Of a stretch of 21,778 bases of DNA, positions 1 to 20,630 are shown piece after piece. The stretch spans positions 1 to 21,778 of IMG/VR virus record IMGVR_UViG_3300027706_000038, one strand, 5' to 3'. Numbering within the stretch: position 1 is the stretch's first letter; each line of letters begins with the position of its first letter. Made by a program: the position numbers and the translations under genes. A model generated the notes under the pieces. It had not been told where the DNA came from. It did not search any database and saw only the letters and a program-made list of their open reading frames with translations. This DNA is from a virus.

Positions 1-35
1 GCCGCAATCGGCTGAGTTTCGTCAGCAACCAGCGA

Positions 36-2132
36 ATGGCAAAAAACTATCGACAGCGGTTAGACGAGGACAACGCTCGGAAGACGCTGCGCAGCGCGGC
101 GGCGCGTGACATTGCGGAGGGCTACCCGTCCAGGCCTCACTGGCGAGTTCTGGCGAAACGCAAGGCATGCGAACGCGATCTGCGCTTGTTCTTCACGACC
201 TATTTTCCCGCCGCCTTTTCTCGGCCGTTCTGCAAGGACCACCTGCGAGTTATTGAGCGATTACAGAACTGCGTCTTGCACGGCGGCCTGTTCGCCCTGG
301 CCATGCCGCGCGGATCGGGGAAAACCACCATGTGCGAGCGGACCGCAATATGGGCCTTGCTCTACGGTCACCGTCGGTTTGTCGCGCTGGTGGCGGCCAC
401 GCAGGCCCTGGCCGAGCAGATGCTGGGTCGAATCAAACGCGAACTGGAAGCCAACGACGCCCTGCTCGCGGGCTTTCGCTCAGTTTGCTACCCGATTCGT
501 CGCCTGGAAAACAACGCACGCCGCGCCGTGGGTCAACTGTTCCGGGGACAGCAGACGAGGATCGAGTGGTCCACCGGTCGCCTCGTTCTGCCCACCGTCC
601 CGGACGAGGCCTGCGAGGGCGTCAACGCGAGCGGGTTCGTGGTCACGGCCGCCGGTCTGACGGGCGCTCTTCGCGGCCAGGCGCACACGCTCCCTTCCGG
701 CGAAGTGATCCGCCCCGAGCTGGTCCTGCTCGACGACGTGCAGACGCGCGAAAGCGCCATGTCTGTTGCGCAAACGGCGGAGCGGCTGGCAATAATCAAC
801 GGCGACGTGCTAGGCATGGCGGGGCCGGGCCAGAAGATCGCGGCCGTTTGCCCCTGCACGGTGATCCGTGAGGGCGATCTCTCCGATCAGCTTCTCAACC
901 GAGAACTCAACCCGCAGTGGCAGGGCGAGCGGACGCGAGCCGTTTATTCCTGGCCGACCGACGAGGAATCCTGGGATCAATACCTTCGCATTCGCTCCGA
1001 GGGACTGCGCACGGGGGCTGGCACGGGAGAGGCCACGCGATTCTATCGCGAGCGGCGTGCGGCAATGGACGCGGGCGCCGTGGTCGCCTGGCCGGAGCGG
1101 CACTACGAAGACGAACTGTCGGCCGTGCAGCACGTGATCAATCTGCGGGCCGATCTGGGCGAGGCGGCCTTCGCCGCCGAGTACCAGAACGAGCCGCTGC
1201 AGGCAGCGGCCGAAGAAGTGCTCGTTCCGACCGCGGCGCAGATCGCCGCCAAGGTGAGCGGCCTGCCGCGCGGCACGCTTCCGCTGGATGCCGCCCACCT
1301 GGTCGCCTTCGTGGACGTTCACGATTCCTTGCTGTTCTGGGCGGCGACGGCGTGGGCGGCCGATTTCACAGGCCAGGTCGTCGATTACGGGACGTGGCCC
1401 GAGCAGCGTCGCTGGCACTTCACCCTGCGAAAGGCGTCGCCGACTCTCGCCGACGTCGCTCCCGGTGCGGGACGAGAGGGCGCCGTTCGGGCCGGTCTCG
1501 ATCGTCTCGTGGCCGCACTGTGCGAGCGGGAGTGGCCGGTCGAGGGCGGGCGGGTCGCGCGAGTCGAGCGGCTGCTGGTGGACAGCGGCTTTCTCCCCGA
1601 CGTGGTCTACGAGGCCTGCCGGCGCTCGCCTCACGCCGCGGCGATCCTGCCCTCGCGCGGCGTCGGGGTTGGCGCGTCGGCCCGGCCGTTCAGCGAGTAC
1701 CAGAGAAAGCCGGGCGAACGACACGGCCCCAACTGGCTGATCGGCCACGCCCCGAGCCGGGCGGCCCGATACGTGCGCTTCGACGCCAACGCCTGGAAGA
1801 CCTTCCTGCACGCCCGCCTGGCCGCGGCCCCTGGCGACCGGGGCGGCCTGTCGCTCTTCGGCCGAGGGCCGGAAGAGCACCGGCTGTTCGCGGAGCACCT
1901 GACGGCCGAGACGCCGACCCGCGTCAGCGCCAAGGGTCGCACCGTGGACGAGTGGCGGATGCGCCCCGGCGTCGCCGACAACCACTGGCTGGACTGCCTG
2001 GTCGGCTGCTGCGTGGCGGCGAGCACTTTGGGTGCGGCTCTGCCGGCGGCCGCCGCGTCGGCCCCGGCCAGGCCGAAGCTGACTCTGGCCGAGCTGCAAA
2101 AAAGAGCCAAAGAAAAACAGGGGCGACGATGA
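36..2132 (+). CDS. terL: Phage terminase large subunit (packaging ATPase-nuclease)
   Basis: Motor that cuts concatemeric phage DNA and pumps it through the portal into the prohead. The 698-residue protein has a Walker A motif PRGSGKTT at residues 91-98 and a Walker B strand LVLLDD at about 229-234. The C-terminal half looks like the RNase H-fold nuclease: acidic residues at D427 (AFVDVHD), D516 (LLVDSG) and D648/D653 (DNHWLD) are candidate metal ligands. Length fits a full-size enzyme. The frame is open upstream to the window edge and there is no clear Shine-Dalgarno before the ATG at 36, so the true start may lie outside the window. No small terminase is visible. The stop overlaps the next start (ATGA). 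Confidence 0.93.
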   Translation: MAKNYRQRLDEDNARKTLRSAAARDIAEGYPSRPHWRVLAKRKACERDLRLFFTTYFPAAFSRPFCKDHLRVIERLQNCVLHGGLFALAMPRGSGKTTMCERTAIWALLYGHRRFVALVAATQALAEQMLGRIKRELEANDALLAGFRSVCYPIRRLENNARRAVGQLFRGQQTRIEWSTGRLVLPTVPDEACEGVNASGFVVTAAGLTGALRGQAHTLPSGEVIRPELVLLDDVQTRESAMSVAQTAERLAIINGDVLGMAGPGQKIAAVCPCTVIREGDLSDQLLNRELNPQWQGERTRAVYSWPTDEESWDQYLRIRSEGLRTGAGTGEATRFYRERRAAMDAGAVVAWPERHYEDELSAVQHVINLRADLGEAAFAAEYQNEPLQAAAEEVLVPTAAQIAAKVSGLPRGTLPLDAAHLVAFVDVHDSLLFWAATAWAADFTGQVVDYGTWPEQRRWHFTLRKASPTLADVAPGAGREGAVRAGLDRLVAALCEREWPVEGGRVARVERLLVDSGFLPDVVYEACRRSPHAAAILPSRGVGVGASARPFSEYQRKPGERHGPNWLIGHAPSRAARYVRFDANAWKTFLHARLAAAPGDRGGLSLFGRGPEEHRLFAEHLTAETPTRVSAKGRTVDEWRMRPGVADNHWLDCLVGCCVAASTLGAALPAAAASAPARPKLTLAELQKRAKEKQGRR

Positions 2133-2395: not shown

Positions 2396-2653
2396 ATGGC
2401 AACTCCCGATCTCGTCGGCGTCGTTCAGTCCGTGGGGCAGGGGCCGGCGGCCGTCACCTCTGACGGGCTGTCGGTCACGCAGCAGCCGGTGGCGGCGGTG
2501 ATCCAGGCCGACCGCTACCTGGCCGCCAAGGCCGCACGCGGCAAGAAGCAGCGCGGTCTGCTCTTCTCCAAACTGATCCCCGCCGGGGCTATGCCCGACT
2601 CGCAGGGGACGCTCGGCGGCGTCATCGGCTTCAACTCGGGGGGGCTTCTCTGA
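2396..2653 (+). CDS. Small protein between terminase and portal, possible gpW-position head-tail protein
   Basis: An 85-residue protein immediately upstream of the portal, where lambda-like phages carry the small head-completion protein gpW. The sequence is not clearly gpW. It has a short beta-like start (VTSDGLSVTQQPV), a helical middle (ADRYLAAKAARGKKQRG) and a glycine-rich C-terminus. I chose the ATG at 2396; an in-frame TTG at 2360 would add 12 residues but has no better ribosome site. The TGATG junction with the portal start implies co-translation. The gene is probably real, but the role is inferred from position only. Confidence 0.6.
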   Translation: MATPDLVGVVQSVGQGPAAVTSDGLSVTQQPVAAVIQADRYLAAKAARGKKQRGLLFSKLIPAGAMPDSQGTLGGVIGFNSGGLL

Positions 2654-4167
2654 TGCTGGACTGGATCAAGAGCGTCTTCGGCAAGCCGCCGGCATCCGGG
2701 CCGGCTCGCTCGGCCGCCGCGCCGGTCCGCCATCGCATCCAGGCCCGCTACGACAACGCTCAGTGGACCGACGAGAACCAGCGCCAGTGGTGGATGTCGG
2801 ACTGGCTGTCGGCCAAGAGCGCTAACAACTTCCAGGTCCGCCGTCAGCTCCGTATCCGTTCGCGCTACGAGGTCAGCAACAACCCCTACCTCTACGGCGT
2901 TTGCACCGGCAACGCCGACGATCTCGTGGGCACCGGGCCGACGCTTCAGTGCCTGCGCGAGTCCGCCGCCGAGAACCGCGCCATCGAGGCGGCGTGGCGA
3001 GAGTGGGCCGAGGAGGTCGGCCTGGCCGAGAAGATTCGCACCTGCAAACTGGCCAAGACCGTGGACGGCGAGGGGTTCCTGATCCTGAAGACGGTCCCCG
3101 ACCTCGAGCACTCGGTCAAGCTCTACCCCCTCGACGTCGAGGCCGACCAGGTCACTACGCCGGCGCCGCACAACCTGGCCGAGCTGTGGGTGGACGGCCT
3201 GGTGCTGCACCCCGTCACCGGCCGGCCGATCGCCTACACGGTGCTGCGGCACCACCCCGGCGATTACTTCTTTCCAAACCTCAATCCGCTGGAGGCGGAC
3301 CGGGTGCCGGCCCGCTTCGTGGTCCACTGGTTCGTCAAGTTCCGGCCCGGTCAGGTGCGCGGCGTCCCCGCCTTCACCAGCTCGCTCGACCTGTTCACCG
3401 AACTGCGTGCGTTCCGCAAGGCGGTCCTGGCCAAGGCGCAAATCTCGGCCAACCTGACGGCGGTGCTCGAGTCCGAAGCGCCGGCCGACGCCGATGGGAC
3501 CGTACAGGAGTCGCCCTTCTCGACGGTCGCGATAGATCGCGGCGTGATGACCGAACTTCCGGCCGGCTACAGTCTCAAGCAGTTCGCCACCGGCGAGCCC
3601 GGCACCAGCTACGAAATCTTTCAGGAGAAATGCTTGGGAGAGGCCTGCCGGCCGCTCTCCTACCCGCTGAACCTGGCCCTGGGCACGAGTCAGAAGTTCA
3701 ACTTCTCGTCCGCCCGTCTTGATCACGTCAACTACCGCAACGCACTTACGGTGGAGCGAACCGACTGCGAGCGCGTGGTCCTTGACCGCATCTTCCGCGC
3801 CTGGCTGGACGAGGCGGTGATGGTCCCGGGGCTGCTGCCCAGGAGCGTCGTCCGTCCAACGGACGTGCCGCACGAGTGGCACTGGCCGGGCTTCGCGCCG
3901 CTCGACCCGGTCGCCGACGCCGACGCCGATCACAGCCGGCTGTCCAACGGCACTCTGACCTGGCGCGAGTTCTGGGCTAGCCGCGGCTACGACTGGCGCG
4001 ACGTGATGCGGCAGCAGGCCCTGGAGCGTGAGGAGATCGAGAAGTTCAAACTGGTCTTCGGCAACCCGCTGCAAAAAACAGAGACTCAGCAGGTAGACGA
4101 AACCAGGGACGCGCGAGCGGACGAGGCCGATGGCGTCGAAGAAGAGGAGGCGGCCGGTGTCTCTTAA
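2653..4167 (+). CDS. Phage portal protein (lambda gpB-like family)
   Basis: Forms the dodecameric ring at one capsid vertex through which DNA enters and to which the tail attaches. The 504-residue protein has the hallmarks of the lambda-type portal family: YDNAQW near residue 33, the RSRYEVSNNPYLYG block at 69-82, DDLVGTGP at 89-96, and KFRPGQVRGVPAF at 229-241. The C-terminal tail (about 465-504) is highly acidic and probably disordered. The start codon shares one base with the previous stop. Its 3' end overlaps the methyltransferase start by 38 bp if the ATG at 4130 is used. Confidence 0.9.
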   Translation: MLDWIKSVFGKPPASGPARSAAAPVRHRIQARYDNAQWTDENQRQWWMSDWLSAKSANNFQVRRQLRIRSRYEVSNNPYLYGVCTGNADDLVGTGPTLQCLRESAAENRAIEAAWREWAEEVGLAEKIRTCKLAKTVDGEGFLILKTVPDLEHSVKLYPLDVEADQVTTPAPHNLAELWVDGLVLHPVTGRPIAYTVLRHHPGDYFFPNLNPLEADRVPARFVVHWFVKFRPGQVRGVPAFTSSLDLFTELRAFRKAVLAKAQISANLTAVLESEAPADADGTVQESPFSTVAIDRGVMTELPAGYSLKQFATGEPGTSYEIFQEKCLGEACRPLSYPLNLALGTSQKFNFSSARLDHVNYRNALTVERTDCERVVLDRIFRAWLDEAVMVPGLLPRSVVRPTDVPHEWHWPGFAPLDPVADADADHSRLSNGTLTWREFWASRGYDWRDVMRQQALEREEIEKFKLVFGNPLQKTETQQVDETRDARADEADGVEEEEAAGVS

Positions 4168-4858
4168 CACGGTGAGCCTGCCAGCAGTTTCCGAGCGACT
4201 CGCTCCGCGGCGACGCCGCGTCGAGCCGCAGCTCGCTCCGGCCGTTACTCAGCCCGGCGACCTGTGGCTGCTGGGCGAGCACCGTCTTCTGTGCGGCGAC
4301 AGCGCGCGGGCGCTGCTCCCCGGCCGAGCTGTCTACGTGTGGGGCGGCTACGGGATCATGGACAAGTGCCTGCCGCTGTTCAAGGAGACGGGGCTTCACT
4401 TCTCCCAGGTGATTATCTGGGACAAGGTGGCTCCGGTGATTACCTGGAAGGATTTCATGGGTGTGCATGAGTGGTGCTTCTACGGCTGGCGCGAAGGCGC
4501 TCCGCACCAGTTCTTTGGTCCGAGAAACGTCCAGGACATTTGGCGAGTGAAGAAGGTTCCTGTGCAGTCGATGATTCACCTGACCGAGAAACCGGTCGAG
4601 CTGGCGGTACGGGCGATTCAGTGCTCGTCGCGCTCCGGCGAGAACGTTCTCGACCTGTTCGGCGGCTCCGGTTCGACACTGATCGCCGCCGAACAGGTCG
4701 GCCGCAGGGCGTTCCTGATGGAAATCGATCCGTGGTACTGCGACCTGATCGTTCAGCGCTTCGAGCGGGTCGCGGGGCGAAAGGCGGAGCGGATCGCGGC
4801 AGGCGAGGAGATCTTTGCCGCGGTCGGCGCGAGCGAGGAGACGGTCGGTGCCTCGTAA
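4130..4858 (+). CDS. Beta-class DNA methyltransferase, internally deleted (no DPPY motif)
   Basis: Belongs to the phage group of N6-adenine/N4-cytosine methyltransferases that begins with a W-LGEHRLLCGD segment (here residues 46-57). The SAM-binding motif LDLFGGSGST is clear at 174-183, preceded by HLTEKPVELA at 150-159. In this class the catalytic DPPY/DPPW motif should follow GDS by some 20-40 residues, but the chain goes directly from GDSARALLP (57-64) to AVYVWGGYG (67-75). The catalytic loop is missing, so the protein is likely inactive as a methylase although the frame is intact. It is 242 residues long. A GTG at 4157 with AGGAGG six bases upstream is an equally good start. It sits oddly between portal and capsid genes. 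Confidence 0.85.
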   Translation: MASKKRRRPVSLNTVSLPAVSERLAPRRRRVEPQLAPAVTQPGDLWLLGEHRLLCGDSARALLPGRAVYVWGGYGIMDKCLPLFKETGLHFSQVIIWDKVAPVITWKDFMGVHEWCFYGWREGAPHQFFGPRNVQDIWRVKKVPVQSMIHLTEKPVELAVRAIQCSSRSGENVLDLFGGSGSTLIAAEQVGRRAFLMEIDPWYCDLIVQRFERVAGRKAERIAAGEEIFAAVGASEETVGAS

Positions 4859-7385
4859 GTGGAAGAAGCACGGCAGGCCGAAGATCCGGGCCGACCGGCA
4901 AGACGGGCCGCGCAGGTTCCTGGCCCTGGCTCAGCAGCCGGTCGCGTTCGACCCGGAAGGGGGCCTGCGGGCGGCACTCGGCGGCGCCAAACTGCCGACC
5001 TTCGAGGGCCTCGCCTACACGGGCGCGGTGATGCGCCCCTCGGGCTGGTGGCAGGACGTGGTGATCGACCTCGCCGGGGTGCAGGTGCCTTTGCAGCACC
5101 GGCCGGTGCTGCGGCAGCACGATCACGAGCAGATCGTCGGGCACACCACCGAGGTGGCGGTGGACGAGGCCGGCATTCACGTCAAGGGCGTGCTCTCGGG
5201 CCAGCCCGAGCACGTGGCCAAGGTGACGATCCCGGCAAGGAACGGCTTTCAGTGGCAGCTGTCCGTCGGGGCCGACCCGATCCGCTGGGAGGAACTGGAG
5301 GCCGGGGAGGAGGCCGAGGTCAACGGCAAGACGGTGGTCGGTCCGCTGCGAATCAGCCGCGAGACGCGACTCGGGGAAATCAGCTTCGTCCCACTGGGCG
5401 CCGACGGCAGCACCTCGGCGACGGTGGCGGCGACGCAGCGAAAGGGCAATCGTATGATCTGGCGATCCGCGCTCAAGCAACTGATGGCCGACCGCCGCGC
5501 CGCCGGCGGCCTGGCGGCCGCCAAATACTCCGACGTAGACATCGACAAGATGTCGGAGGACGAGGCCAAGTCCGCCCTCAAAGAGGCGATGGCCGAAGAG
5601 GCCGACGAGGAGGAAGAGGAAGAGGCCGACGAGGAGGAGGAGGCCGACGAGGAGGAAGAGGAGGCCGACGAGGAGGAAGAGGAGGCCGACGAGGAGGAAG
5701 AGGAGGAGGCCGCGCGGTGCTCGCGGCGATCGGCCGCTCGCGGCGGCCGCCGCTCGACGATCCGGGCCGGCCGCCGCCGCAACGATCCGAGGTCGATCGT
5801 GGCCGAGCTGCGCCGCCAGGCCGCTCGCGAGCTGAGGCGTCAGGAGTCGATCCGCGCCGCCTGCGAGCGCTGCGACAATCCCCAAGTGATCGTGGCCGGC
5901 AAGAGGGTGCCGCTGGCCGCTCACGCGATCCGCAAGGGCTGGGGCCTCGCCCAGGTCAAGGCCAAACTGCTCGATCTGCTGAGGGCGGAGCGGCCCGGCG
6001 GCCCCGTCGGCGTTCCCGGCGGGCTGGCCTACTCGACCAGCCGCCCGCAGGTCAGCGAGGCCGTCCTTGAGGCGGCGGTGCTCCAGGCCTGCCGCCACCA
6101 GTTCAAGCTCGACGACGACGACTTCTACACCGAGCCGACGCCGGACGGCCGCGGCCGCATGCGCCGCGTGCCCAAGTACGTCGAGGCCGACGCTCGCCGC
6201 GAGCTGCGGACCCGCTACACCGACCAGGTGCAGCAGGCGGCCCACGATCTCTACCGCGGGCGGATCGGCCTGCACCAACTCCTGGCCGACGCCTTCCGCG
6301 CGAAAGGGATTTCTCGCCCCTTCGATCTCCGCAGTGAGCCGGGGGTCCGCTCCATGCTCGCCGCCTGGGACCGGCTGGAGCCGGCGGGCGGCCAGCCGAT
6401 CGAGGCCGACGGCGCGAGCAACCTCGGCATCTCCAACATCCTGGCGAACGTTTTAAACAAGTTCGCCCTGCAGGGCTACCTCTACGTCGAGCAGACCTGG
6501 CGAGAAATCTGCGCGATCCGGCCGGTCAACGACTTCAAGCCCACGAAGTCGATCAACCTGCTGGGCAACGCGATGTTTCGGCAGGTGGGCAGCTCTTCCG
6601 AGCTGTCCAGCCTGACGTTCGGCGACCAGGCCTTCTCGAACCAGGCCGCGCCCTACGGGATCATCGGGACGATCCCCTGGACGCACCTGGTGAACGACGA
6701 TCTCGGGATCCTCTCGGGCGCGCCGCTCAAGATCGGTCAGGGCGGCGGTCTGGCCCTCAACGACGCGATCTGGACGCTGTGGGCCGGCATGGCCGCCGGC
6801 ACCGTCAACGGCGACGACGGCGTGTCCTTCTGGCGGACCGGCAACCTGCTGACCGACGCCGCCAAGAAGCAGGGCAAGGCCTACCGCGCCAACAAACTGT
6901 CCGGCGGCGCGTCCGCTCTCAGTTCGGCCTCCCTCCAGGCGGCGAAGGCGCTCTTCGATAACCAGGTCGATCCGAACGGCTTCCCGCTGGGCTTCGACGG
7001 CTCGATGCCGATCCTGCTCTTCGGGCCGTCGAACTGGACGACGGCGATGGAGCTGCTGACCTATCGCGAGATCGTCTACGGCGGCGCGACCGCCGCCAAG
7101 CAGCCGCAGGGCAACGTCTGGGCCGGCACGATGAAGCCGGCCATGAGCCGATACGTCGAAAACCCGAGCTACGTCAACAGTTCGACGGCCTTCTGGATCC
7201 TCTATAACCCGGCCGCCCTGCCGGTGATCGAGGCCTGCTTCCTGAACGGCGTGGACACGCCGGCCGTGCTGCAGGCCGGGCCGGACTACCAGTTCGACAA
7301 GCTGGGGATTTCGATCCGCGGCACGATGCCCTTCGGCTGCAATCAGCAGAACTTCCGCGGCGGCGTTTACTCGGTCGGCGCGTAG
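4848..7385 (+). CDS. Prohead protease-scaffold-major capsid fusion protein
   Basis: One 845-residue polypeptide combining functions usually split over two or three genes. Residues about 45-195 resemble the HK97-type (S78) prohead protease: PLQHRPVLRQHDH at 81-93 holds the candidate catalytic His, QLSVGADP at 137-144 the candidate Ser, and LGEISFVPLGA at 175-185 is a typical closing strand. Residues 236-288 are extremely acidic (scaffold-like). A basic linker follows, then a helical AAHAIRKGW segment and the capsid domain (about 410-845), ending GGVYSVGA. The GTG at 4848 is preferred because GAGGAG lies 7 bases upstream; it overlaps the methyltransferase end by 11 bp. Self-cleavage should release mature capsid protein. 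An internal ATG at 5454 (Met203) could give a separate scaffold-capsid product. Confidence 0.85.
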   Translation: MPRKWKKHGRPKIRADRQDGPRRFLALAQQPVAFDPEGGLRAALGGAKLPTFEGLAYTGAVMRPSGWWQDVVIDLAGVQVPLQHRPVLRQHDHEQIVGHTTEVAVDEAGIHVKGVLSGQPEHVAKVTIPARNGFQWQLSVGADPIRWEELEAGEEAEVNGKTVVGPLRISRETRLGEISFVPLGADGSTSATVAATQRKGNRMIWRSALKQLMADRRAAGGLAAAKYSDVDIDKMSEDEAKSALKEAMAEEADEEEEEEADEEEEADEEEEEADEEEEEADEEEEEEAARCSRRSAARGGRRSTIRAGRRRNDPRSIVAELRRQAARELRRQESIRAACERCDNPQVIVAGKRVPLAAHAIRKGWGLAQVKAKLLDLLRAERPGGPVGVPGGLAYSTSRPQVSEAVLEAAVLQACRHQFKLDDDDFYTEPTPDGRGRMRRVPKYVEADARRELRTRYTDQVQQAAHDLYRGRIGLHQLLADAFRAKGISRPFDLRSEPGVRSMLAAWDRLEPAGGQPIEADGASNLGISNILANVLNKFALQGYLYVEQTWREICAIRPVNDFKPTKSINLLGNAMFRQVGSSSELSSLTFGDQAFSNQAAPYGIIGTIPWTHLVNDDLGILSGAPLKIGQGGGLALNDAIWTLWAGMAAGTVNGDDGVSFWRTGNLLTDAAKKQGKAYRANKLSGGASALSSASLQAAKALFDNQVDPNGFPLGFDGSMPILLFGPSNWTTAMELLTYREIVYGGATAAKQPQGNVWAGTMKPAMSRYVENPSYVNSSTAFWILYNPAALPVIEACFLNGVDTPAVLQAGPDYQFDKLGISIRGTMPFGCNQQNFRGGVYSVGA
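5598..5711 (+). repeat. Imperfect 18-24 bp tandem repeats encoding a Glu/Asp-rich tract
   Basis: Five direct units of 24, 18, 21, 21 and 24 bases each begin GAGGCCGACGAGGAG and encode EADEEEE-type heptads inside the protease-capsid fusion. Unit lengths differ by whole codons, so expansion or contraction would keep the frame. The encoded stretch (about residues 251-288) is nearly all Glu, Asp and Ala and probably works as a flexible acidic scaffold or delta-like domain that is cut away on maturation. Confidence 0.9.
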
Positions 7386-8921: not shown

Positions 8922-9392
8922 GTGGCCGACGCCTGCGAGGTCCAGATCGCCAACGCGGTCGCGGCCGAGCTGAACGACCCGGCCCGGCCGTGGGCCGGGC
9001 AGTTCACGGCCCAGCCGCGATCGTGGCTGCCCGTCTACGGCCCCGACGAGCTGATGCAGGCCGGCGTGCCGGTCCTCCGCGTGGCGGTGGTGCCGCTGAC
9101 GATCGCCGCCGCGCCGCAGGGCCGCGGGTCGCGCTGGCTCTACGACTACGGGGTGGCGATCGAGCTGCAAAAGAAGGTCCTGACGCCGCAGGCGGCCACG
9201 GCGACGATCGACGCCCTGGCTCAGCTGGCGGAATCGATCCAGGGCTTCTACGCCGACTTCCACGTGCTGGCGACCCTGGCCGGCTGGAGGGTCGTGGGCA
9301 GCCAGCGCGAGGACGTTTACGACCTGGCGCAGCTCTACGAGGACAACACCTTCGCCACCCTGGTGGGCCTGCGGGTGAGAGGCTGGCGGTGA
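8922..9392 (+). CDS. Minor tail or tail-terminator-like protein
   Basis: A 156-residue protein lying between the head-tail joining protein and the gp10-like protein. It has alternating helices and strands (EVQIANAVAAELND, LRVAVVPLTIAAAP, RWLYDYGVAIELQKKV, FATLVGLRVRGWR), a pattern seen in gpU/gp10-type tail-terminator and completion proteins. Its place in the gene order supports a role at the head-proximal end of the tail tube. I do not recognise a specific family. It starts at GTG 8922, one base after the previous stop, and its end overlaps the next gene as GTGA. Confidence 0.6.
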   Translation: MADACEVQIANAVAAELNDPARPWAGQFTAQPRSWLPVYGPDELMQAGVPVLRVAVVPLTIAAAPQGRGSRWLYDYGVAIELQKKVLTPQAATATIDALAQLAESIQGFYADFHVLATLAGWRVVGSQREDVYDLAQLYEDNTFATLVGLRVRGWR

Positions 9393-16378: not shown

Positions 16379-17386
16379 GTGGACCTGCACGGCATCGTTC
16401 TGGCGCTGCGGGCGGCGGGGCTGAGGGTGGCCGGCGCCGCCTTCGCCGCGCCGCACCCGACGGCGGCGCGGGCCACGTTTCACCGCTCCGGCGCGGGCTG
16501 GGTGCGGCTGGACTGGGAGGGCGAGCCGGACGAGGCGGCGGCCGCCGCGGTCCTGGCCTCGCCCCGCGGCGAGGCCCGCTTCGTCTCCTGCGCCGACCTG
16601 GCGCGGGCGGCGGTCGCCCTGGCCGGGAAGCTGCCGCCGGACGCGGCGGGGATCGCCGGCGTGCCGCGGTCGGGCATGGCGCCGGCGGCGGTGATCGCCA
16701 CGCTGCTGCAGCTGCCGCTCTGGGAGGCCGGCGACGTTTTGCGGCGGGTCGGCCACGGCGGGCGGGGCGGACAGGTCGGCTTCGCCCGCGACCGGGGACG
16801 CCTGGTCGTCGTGGATGACACGGTCTACAGCGGCGCCAGCATGGAGCGGGCCTGCCGCGCCGCCGGCGGCGGCGTGGTGCGGGCGGCGGTCTTCTGCAAG
16901 CCCGAGTCGGCCGGGGCCGTGGACGTCTTCGCGGAGCCTCTGCCCAGCCCTCACCTGCTGGAGTGGAACCTGTTTAACTCGGCGGTGCTGCGCGGCCAGG
17001 CCACCGACCCGTTTTTCGCGGGCGGAGTTGCCGCCGACCTGGACGGCGTGCTGCTTCACGACGAGCGCTCGGGCGGGCCGCCCGGCACGCCCTACATGCT
17101 CCCGCGGACGCTGCCGGCGCCCCTGATCGTCACGGGCCGGCCGGAGTCGGTGCGCGCCGAGACCGAGGCCCAGCTGCGGCACTGGGGCTGCCGCTGGGAG
17201 CGGCTGGAGATGGCGCCTCCGGGGGCGGACCCGGCCCGGCACAAGGCCGCGCACTACGCCGCCTCGCGCTGCGGCGTTTTCGTCGAAAGCGACCCGGAAC
17301 AGGCGCAAGAAATCTTCGAGCGCTGCGGCAAGCCGGTCGTCTGTCCGCGCACGGGCAGGGTCTGGAGCGAAAGGAGCGAGCCGTGA
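16379..17386 (+). CDS. Phosphoribosyltransferase-HAD hydrolase fusion protein
   Basis: A 335-residue two-domain protein. Residues ~65-185 form a type I phosphoribosyltransferase-like domain: GIAGVPRSGMAPAAV at 91-105 and the PRPP-binding signature LVVVDDTVYSG at 142-152. Residues ~215-330 form a HAD-type phosphatase-like domain: motif I DLDGVLL at 220-226 (D220, D222), motif II VTGRPES at 251-257, a lysine near 289, and FVESDPEQA at 301-309. Such pairings occur in stress and nucleotide-biosynthetic operons linked to Ter proteins and in some phages. The substrate cannot be told here. It sits right after the fibre gene, 4 bases downstream, and its stop overlaps the next start. It might supply a modified nucleotide or nucleoside, or act on fibre or host ligands; these are guesses. 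Confidence 0.78.
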   Translation: MDLHGIVLALRAAGLRVAGAAFAAPHPTAARATFHRSGAGWVRLDWEGEPDEAAAAAVLASPRGEARFVSCADLARAAVALAGKLPPDAAGIAGVPRSGMAPAAVIATLLQLPLWEAGDVLRRVGHGGRGGQVGFARDRGRLVVVDDTVYSGASMERACRAAGGGVVRAAVFCKPESAGAVDVFAEPLPSPHLLEWNLFNSAVLRGQATDPFFAGGVAADLDGVLLHDERSGGPPGTPYMLPRTLPAPLIVTGRPESVRAETEAQLRHWGCRWERLEMAPPGADPARHKAAHYAASRCGVFVESDPEQAQEIFERCGKPVVCPRTGRVWSERSEP

Positions 17387-19845: not shown

Positions 19846-19947
19846 TTGGGACATTACAAAGACGGCACGCCGGCGAGGATCAGCGACGTCGTGAAGGGCG
19901 CGGGACTCAATCAGACGCTTCGTATTCGCAATACATTGCAACGATGA
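19846..19947 (+). CDS. Possible short ORF or gene remnant before the DpdA-like gene
   Basis: The gap between 19834 and 19944 contains a frame that reads like natural protein (HYKDGTPARISDVVKG, then AGLNQTLRIRNTLQR) and whose stop overlaps the next start as ATGA. The only in-frame start near it is TTG 19846, giving 33 residues. It may be a decayed C-terminus of a small helix-turn-helix-type gene or a coupled leader peptide. Positions 19922-19934 also form a 5-bp-arm inverted repeat (GTATT/AATAC). Confidence 0.3.
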   Translation: MGHYKDGTPARISDVVKGAGLNQTLRIRNTLQR

Positions 19948-20630
19948 TCGTCTACCTCGCCAGCCCGAACACGCAGCAGCAGGCCGAGCACGCGGCCGGG
20001 ATGCCCGTGCTCCTGTCCTACGCCTCGTGGTCGGCCTGGCTCGACAGAGGCTATCAGCAGTCCTTCTCTCGCCTCCTGATCGACTCCGGCGCCTACAGCG
20101 AGTTCAGCAGGGGGGTGAAGGTGGACCTTGCCGCCTACGCCGACTGGTCTCGGCGCTGGGTGGGCCACGCCGATGCCATCGCCGGCCTGGACGACGTCGG
20201 CGGCGACTGGCGCAGGTCGCTGCGCAACTATGAGGCCTTCCCGCTCGGCTTCCCGACCTTCCACGAGAGCGACCCGCCCGAACTGCTGGACGACCTCGTA
20301 GCCCTGGCCCGTGAGCGCGGCAACTGGATCGGCCTGGGCCTGCTCCCGCCGCGGGAGAACAAGGAACGTTGGGTCCGCGCCGCACTGGAGCGCATCCCCG
20401 ACGGCCTGCACGTTCACGGCTGGGCTCTGCGCCGGTACACGCACTGCCGCCGCCTGGACAGCGTGGACTCCACAAACTGGTGGCGGGAGGCCATGAGGCT
20501 GCATTCCCTGAGCGAACTGTCTCACCTGACCTACGGCGAGTGCCTGGAGATCGTGGTGAAGCGGTACCAGCGCTGGACGCGGCGGGTCGTTGACGCCGAG
20601 GCGGGGTTGTTCGCCGGCATGGACGGCTAA
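19944..20630 (+). CDS. Guanine-transglycosylase-like TIM-barrel protein (DpdA-like)
   Basis: A 228-residue protein resembling the TGT superfamily, whose members swap guanine for a 7-deazaguanine base in tRNA (Tgt) or in DNA (phage and bacterial DpdA). Visible motifs in order are YLASPN at 4-9, LIDSGAYSEFS at 45-55 (compare the TDSGGFQ block of Tgt), GLDDVGGDW at 81-89, WIGLGLLPP at 128-136, LHVHGWALR at 155-163, and DSVDSTNWW at 172-180, where D172 or D176 could be the nucleophile. No Cys zinc-binding loop is seen, as in short phage DpdA variants. No deazaguanine synthesis genes (folE, queC, queD, queE) are in the window, so a substrate would come from the host or from elsewhere in the genome. 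The match is from memory. Confidence 0.6.
   Translation: MIVYLASPNTQQQAEHAAGMPVLLSYASWSAWLDRGYQQSFSRLLIDSGAYSEFSRGVKVDLAAYADWSRRWVGHADAIAGLDDVGGDWRRSLRNYEAFPLGFPTFHESDPPELLDDLVALARERGNWIGLGLLPPRENKERWVRAALERIPDGLHVHGWALRRYTHCRRLDSVDSTNWWREAMRLHSLSELSHLTYGECLEIVVKRYQRWTRRVVDAEAGLFAGMDG

Follow-up and report, generated by a model that had tools for sequence, protein, structure and literature searches.

What kind of gene lies between the portal and capsid genes of the virus record IMGVR_UViG_3300027706_000038 (IMG/VR), where a DNA methyltransferase lacking its catalytic motif was predicted, and could its product still methylate DNA? Within the 21,778 nucleotides analysed here (the window), the open reading frame (ORF) occupies 4130–4858 on the plus strand, exactly as originally given, encodes 242 aa and is free of stops and frameshifts. 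It matches the Pfam profile PF01555 (N6_N4_Mtase) with 67.6 bits, above the curated cut-off of 26.7, yet only over profile positions 138–220 of 221, and its best PHROG is phrog_498, DNA methyltransferase. The ORF can be described as a truncated beta-class DNA methyltransferase lacking both ParB and DPPY. Its N-terminal tail (residues 1–42; 4130–4255, +) is only a linker-like stretch at the place where homologues have a ParB domain, and is followed by GDLWLLGEHRLLCGDS (residues 43–58; 4256–4303, +), which aligns with the conserved segment preceding motif IV. Behind the junction at 4303/4304 (+) come residues 59–106 (4304–4447, +), in which conserved columns are changed, then HLTEKPVEL (4577–4603, +), a motif X-like segment, and DLFGGSGST (residues 175–183; 4652–4678, +), motif I, containing the FxGxG loop for S-adenosylmethionine (SAM) binding. 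Both segments are kept in the alignment with homologues, and the SAM-binding end is intact, as had been predicted.

At the junction, CGDS58 runs straight into A59RALLPGR, where the aligned homologues have about 100 additional aa. Among 114 homologues the distance from CGDS to FGN averages 102 aa (mostly 95–121), and the segment lost in frame from the window protein comprises motif IV together with its strand; homologues carry NTDPPYNVKVEPRSNNAI there. The DPPY-type catalytic site of motif IV expected from PF01555 was not found in the ORF, and in all six frames of the window [DNS]PP[YFWH] strings occur only at 9352 and 18572, both in unrelated sequence. When a full-length homologue was compared with the window, significant matches were confined to its residues 151–172 (4241–4306) and 273–454 (4295–4840). 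Because it matches in these two pieces only, the missing segment does not lie elsewhere in the window, and neither the pattern search nor the homologue search of the window revealed another DPPY-bearing methyltransferase piece. The alignment and the six-frame search thus bear out the original prediction that the DPPY/DPPW segment is absent and the frame kept. A long repeat at the junction was considered and rejected, as the two sides are only weakly similar (on average 7.0 of 12 bases identical, versus 3.5 in other in-frame registers); in homologues, they have identical runs of only about 3–4 bases in common. Motif IV is essential in beta-class DNA methyltransferases; as this motif and its strand are gone, the 242-aa protein should not methylate DNA. 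An APPA change of DPPY has been used for catalysis-defective variants (PMC7736820).

The relatives, collected from virus contigs and from a genome collection, mostly of Planctomycetota, are typically 440–500 aa long and combine a ParB domain with a DPPY-containing methyltransferase. Two of them, L001 and L003, match PF01555 over positions 1–220 as well as ParB_N, the ParB match of L001 being slightly below the Pfam cut-off. The N-terminal ParB domain is absent from the window ORF, which according to the alignment has lost the whole ParB half of about 150 aa. The ORF is therefore doubly truncated; the original prediction recognised the loss of the catalytic segment and overlooked that of the ParB half. 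Compared with these Planctomycetota phage fusions (phrog_498-like, including L001 and L003), the ORF shows about 65–71% identity over the retained C-terminal segment and has the same SAM-binding motif, but it lacks ParB and the DPPY segment and is located behind the portal gene instead of upstream of the terminase.

The large terminase gene (36–2132, +) begins at the left edge of the contig and is followed by the portal gene (2653–4167, +), whose 3′ end shares 38 bases, read in another frame, with the first codons of the truncated ORF. At its other end the ORF overlaps by 11 bases with a prohead protease–capsid fusion (4848–7385, +), for which the start at 4848 is likely a GTG, as judged by eye. 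Both overlaps resemble those of a normal coupled operon. In the 4848–7385 ORF, protease and capsid seem to be fused into one frame, with a long acidic repeat, EEADEEEEEADEEEEE, separating them. Farther downstream, 16379–17386, where the tail region ends, gives a weak phosphoribosyltransferase match (VVVDDTVYSGASM) and, farther on, has DLDGVL, a string similar to a HAD motif; it may encode a protein of two domains. The stretch 19944–20630 encodes a queuine tRNA-ribosyltransferase-like protein (phrog_887).

Of the 93 homologue loci with a match to the terminase of the window, 92 have the methyltransferase upstream of it, and in all 28 homologue loci with an identified portal gene the portal is downstream of the methyltransferase, never upstream. 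Likewise, 66 portal places were compared in 392 Planctomycetota genomes; at 22 of these a methyltransferase gene precedes the portal by 4.2–9.3 kb on the same strand, and at none does it follow. The window ORF thus departs from the usual, although not strictly defining, position of ParB–methyltransferase fusions upstream of the terminase. No gene was found between portal and protease in the five nearer portal relatives (60–71% identity) that cover this site, and the nearest portal relatives, most of which are fragments, carry no methyltransferase. The oddness of a methyltransferase among portal and capsid genes had been noticed in the original prediction, and the gene order of the homologues agrees with it; that the ORF is displaced from its standard site ahead of the terminase had escaped notice. 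Since the contig begins at the terminase (window 1–36), that standard site is cut off at the left end, and any working full-length copy would lie beyond it.

Combining these observations, the ORF is probably a copy of a ParB–methyltransferase fusion that is incomplete, out of its usual place and catalytically dead, most likely a relic. Many Planctomycetota prophages carry such a fusion upstream of the terminase. A piece starting within the interdomain linker would have been placed behind the portal gene, where it could be read from an ATG inside the end of that gene, and about 100 codons around DPPY would have dropped out without a change of frame, perhaps because the CGDS and FGN-A codons, which are weakly similar, recombined with each other. 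The truncated ORF would then most likely survive as a relic that is still translated within the head-gene operon. We infer that activity is lost, how the deletion came about and in what order these events took place.

A second copy of the short form was found neither among 305 loci with a relative nor in the 392 Planctomycetota genomes. Ten ORFs among the 305 fetched loci lack DPPY, none of them in the form of the window ORF: three start at a contig edge (L093, L187 and L028), in L028 and also in L047 the remaining exon is preceded by a group II intron, two (L186 and L188) have the remainder of the gene in other frames, and four (L097, L099, L101 and L111) end early or are interrupted, apparently through an edge, insertions or frame breaks. 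A degenerate pattern of the junction gave 0 matches in the virus collection, and further searches, with the N-terminal 99 aa, with an internal stretch of 81 aa, of the genome collection and of the 392 Planctomycetota genomes, retrieved only full-length genes, genes at contig edges or otherwise broken genes.

Several of these broken genes have features of their own. Matches to the group II intron family RF00029 (L028:28–102 and L047:2379–2453) lie directly before exons that resume near V-x-x-RSNNAIA, just behind DPPYNV of the methyltransferase, so that these introns appear to be placed in the region of the catalytic motif; L047 also has reverse-transcriptase-like sequence upstream. In L101 (1353–3732) the methyltransferase is split into pieces that match window residues 38–59 and 56–238 and are about 1.8 kb apart, a spacing far above that of intact homologues, and the locus has no Rfam match. 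A Type II hammerhead ribozyme match (RF02276) lies near the broken methyltransferase of L097 (2089–2152, minus strand).

Selection on the retained part was estimated from 22 sequences and 168 codons. On the branch of the window sequence omega is about 0.055, versus 0.050 elsewhere; omega = 1 is rejected (2 delta lnL about 32), and the likelihood profile gives a rough upper limit near 0.13. This shows strong purifying selection on the retained part over the branch as a whole, over which omega does not support a pseudogene. Because the branch spans time both before and after the deletion, its low omega is no proof that the short form is selected. It does rule out that the gene decayed neutrally for most of the branch; since constraint prevailed over most of that time, the deletion either came late on the branch or has left a short protein that selection still maintains. 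Splitting the gene for omega brought no gain, since synonymous sites are saturated.

Changes at conserved residues are concentrated beside the junction. Among columns conserved to at least 95%, 10 of 28 are changed in residues 59–106 versus 4 of 65 in residues 107–226 (Fisher p about 7e-4, for a boundary picked after seeing the data), and residues 167–226 depart from the consensus no more than the average homologue does. Counted in a wider set, rare residues number 11 in residues 59–106 and 3 in each of two later parts. For changes in the 95% columns the window protein ranks first among 141 sequences, while in a wider set including more distant proteins its number is high, yet not the first. 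A fresh deletion in the clone or population had originally been considered too; these odd changes hint that the deletion is not brand-new. A mosaic of two methyltransferases was also considered; compared with L277, the best match of an internal segment of the ORF, differences at third positions are spread evenly over the gene (0.42, 0.42 and 0.39), and a mosaic origin is therefore unsupported.

Structure predictions point in a similar direction, but are weak evidence because the alignments are shallow. With the same 21-sequence alignment, mean pLDDT is 59.5 for the window protein versus 71.7 for a full-length homologue, in whose model DPPY directly follows a confident strand (186–191) that is missing from the window protein. 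Confidence is 51–64 in window residues 61–90 versus 66–81 for the matching blocks of the full-length control. Together, the sequence changes and models make the segment adjoining the deletion look destabilised and less constrained. The closest solved folds are beta-class N6/N4 methyltransferases (TTHA0409, M1.HpyAVI, M.MboIIA, M.RsrI, CcrM and M.BceJIV), reaching TM-scores no higher than 0.43 when normalised by query length; the window ORF keeps motif I, but unlike these enzymes it is without motif IV and the strand.

The low omega of the branch as a whole, together with the open frame, the tight overlaps with both neighbours, the intact motif I and motif X-like segments and the near-consensus residues 167–226, would also fit a short protein kept in the portal–capsid operon for a non-catalytic role, for example SAM or DNA binding, regulation or an association with the head. 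Such a role, envisaged originally as a retained non-methylating DNA-binding or virion-linked protein, seems unlikely: the short form is a singleton without siblings, the ParB DNA-binding half is lost along with the motif IV strand, the segment by the junction is diverged and poorly modelled, and the omega estimate mixes time before and after the deletion. In a more specific version, quite improbable, the protein lacking DPPY and ParB would have been recruited to bind SAM or DNA without catalysis, perhaps in association with the head, and would be translated together with the portal and protease–capsid genes.

An assembly artefact, or a minority deletion variant at a locus where the true gene is longer, has slight probability. 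Virus records of this kind are often assembled from metagenomes, this one is without a close relative, and conserved genes of the ParB–methyltransferase family are plentiful in such samples; however, the identical runs seen at the junction in homologues are too short for an ordinary k-mer misjoin, the frame is kept there and both ORF ends overlap neighbours, an ORF starting inside the portal gene leaves no room for a ParB half, and the changes beside the junction suggest age. That the protein is an active methyltransferase through a replacement motif, or is completed in trans by another polypeptide, is hardly credible despite its SAM-binding motif, given the window without a second fragment or DPPY-like gene, the need for motif IV in this class and the defect caused by the APPA change.

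A displaced and dead partial copy remains the preferred reading, and both insertion elements and recombination inside the gene have been described for phage methylases (PMC9957025, PMC11855218). Like the window ORF, those methylases are sites of repeated rearrangement; their cases are insertions (inteins and homing endonucleases), whereas the window ORF has undergone deletion and displacement, a comparison that does not extend to the families themselves. For automatic annotation, the ORF illustrates that an open frame is not the same as an active methylase. As a relic, it would be one more broken and moved phage methyltransferase gene, of little consequence; if the short form is selected, a head-gene operon would have adopted a methyltransferase that is catalytically dead.
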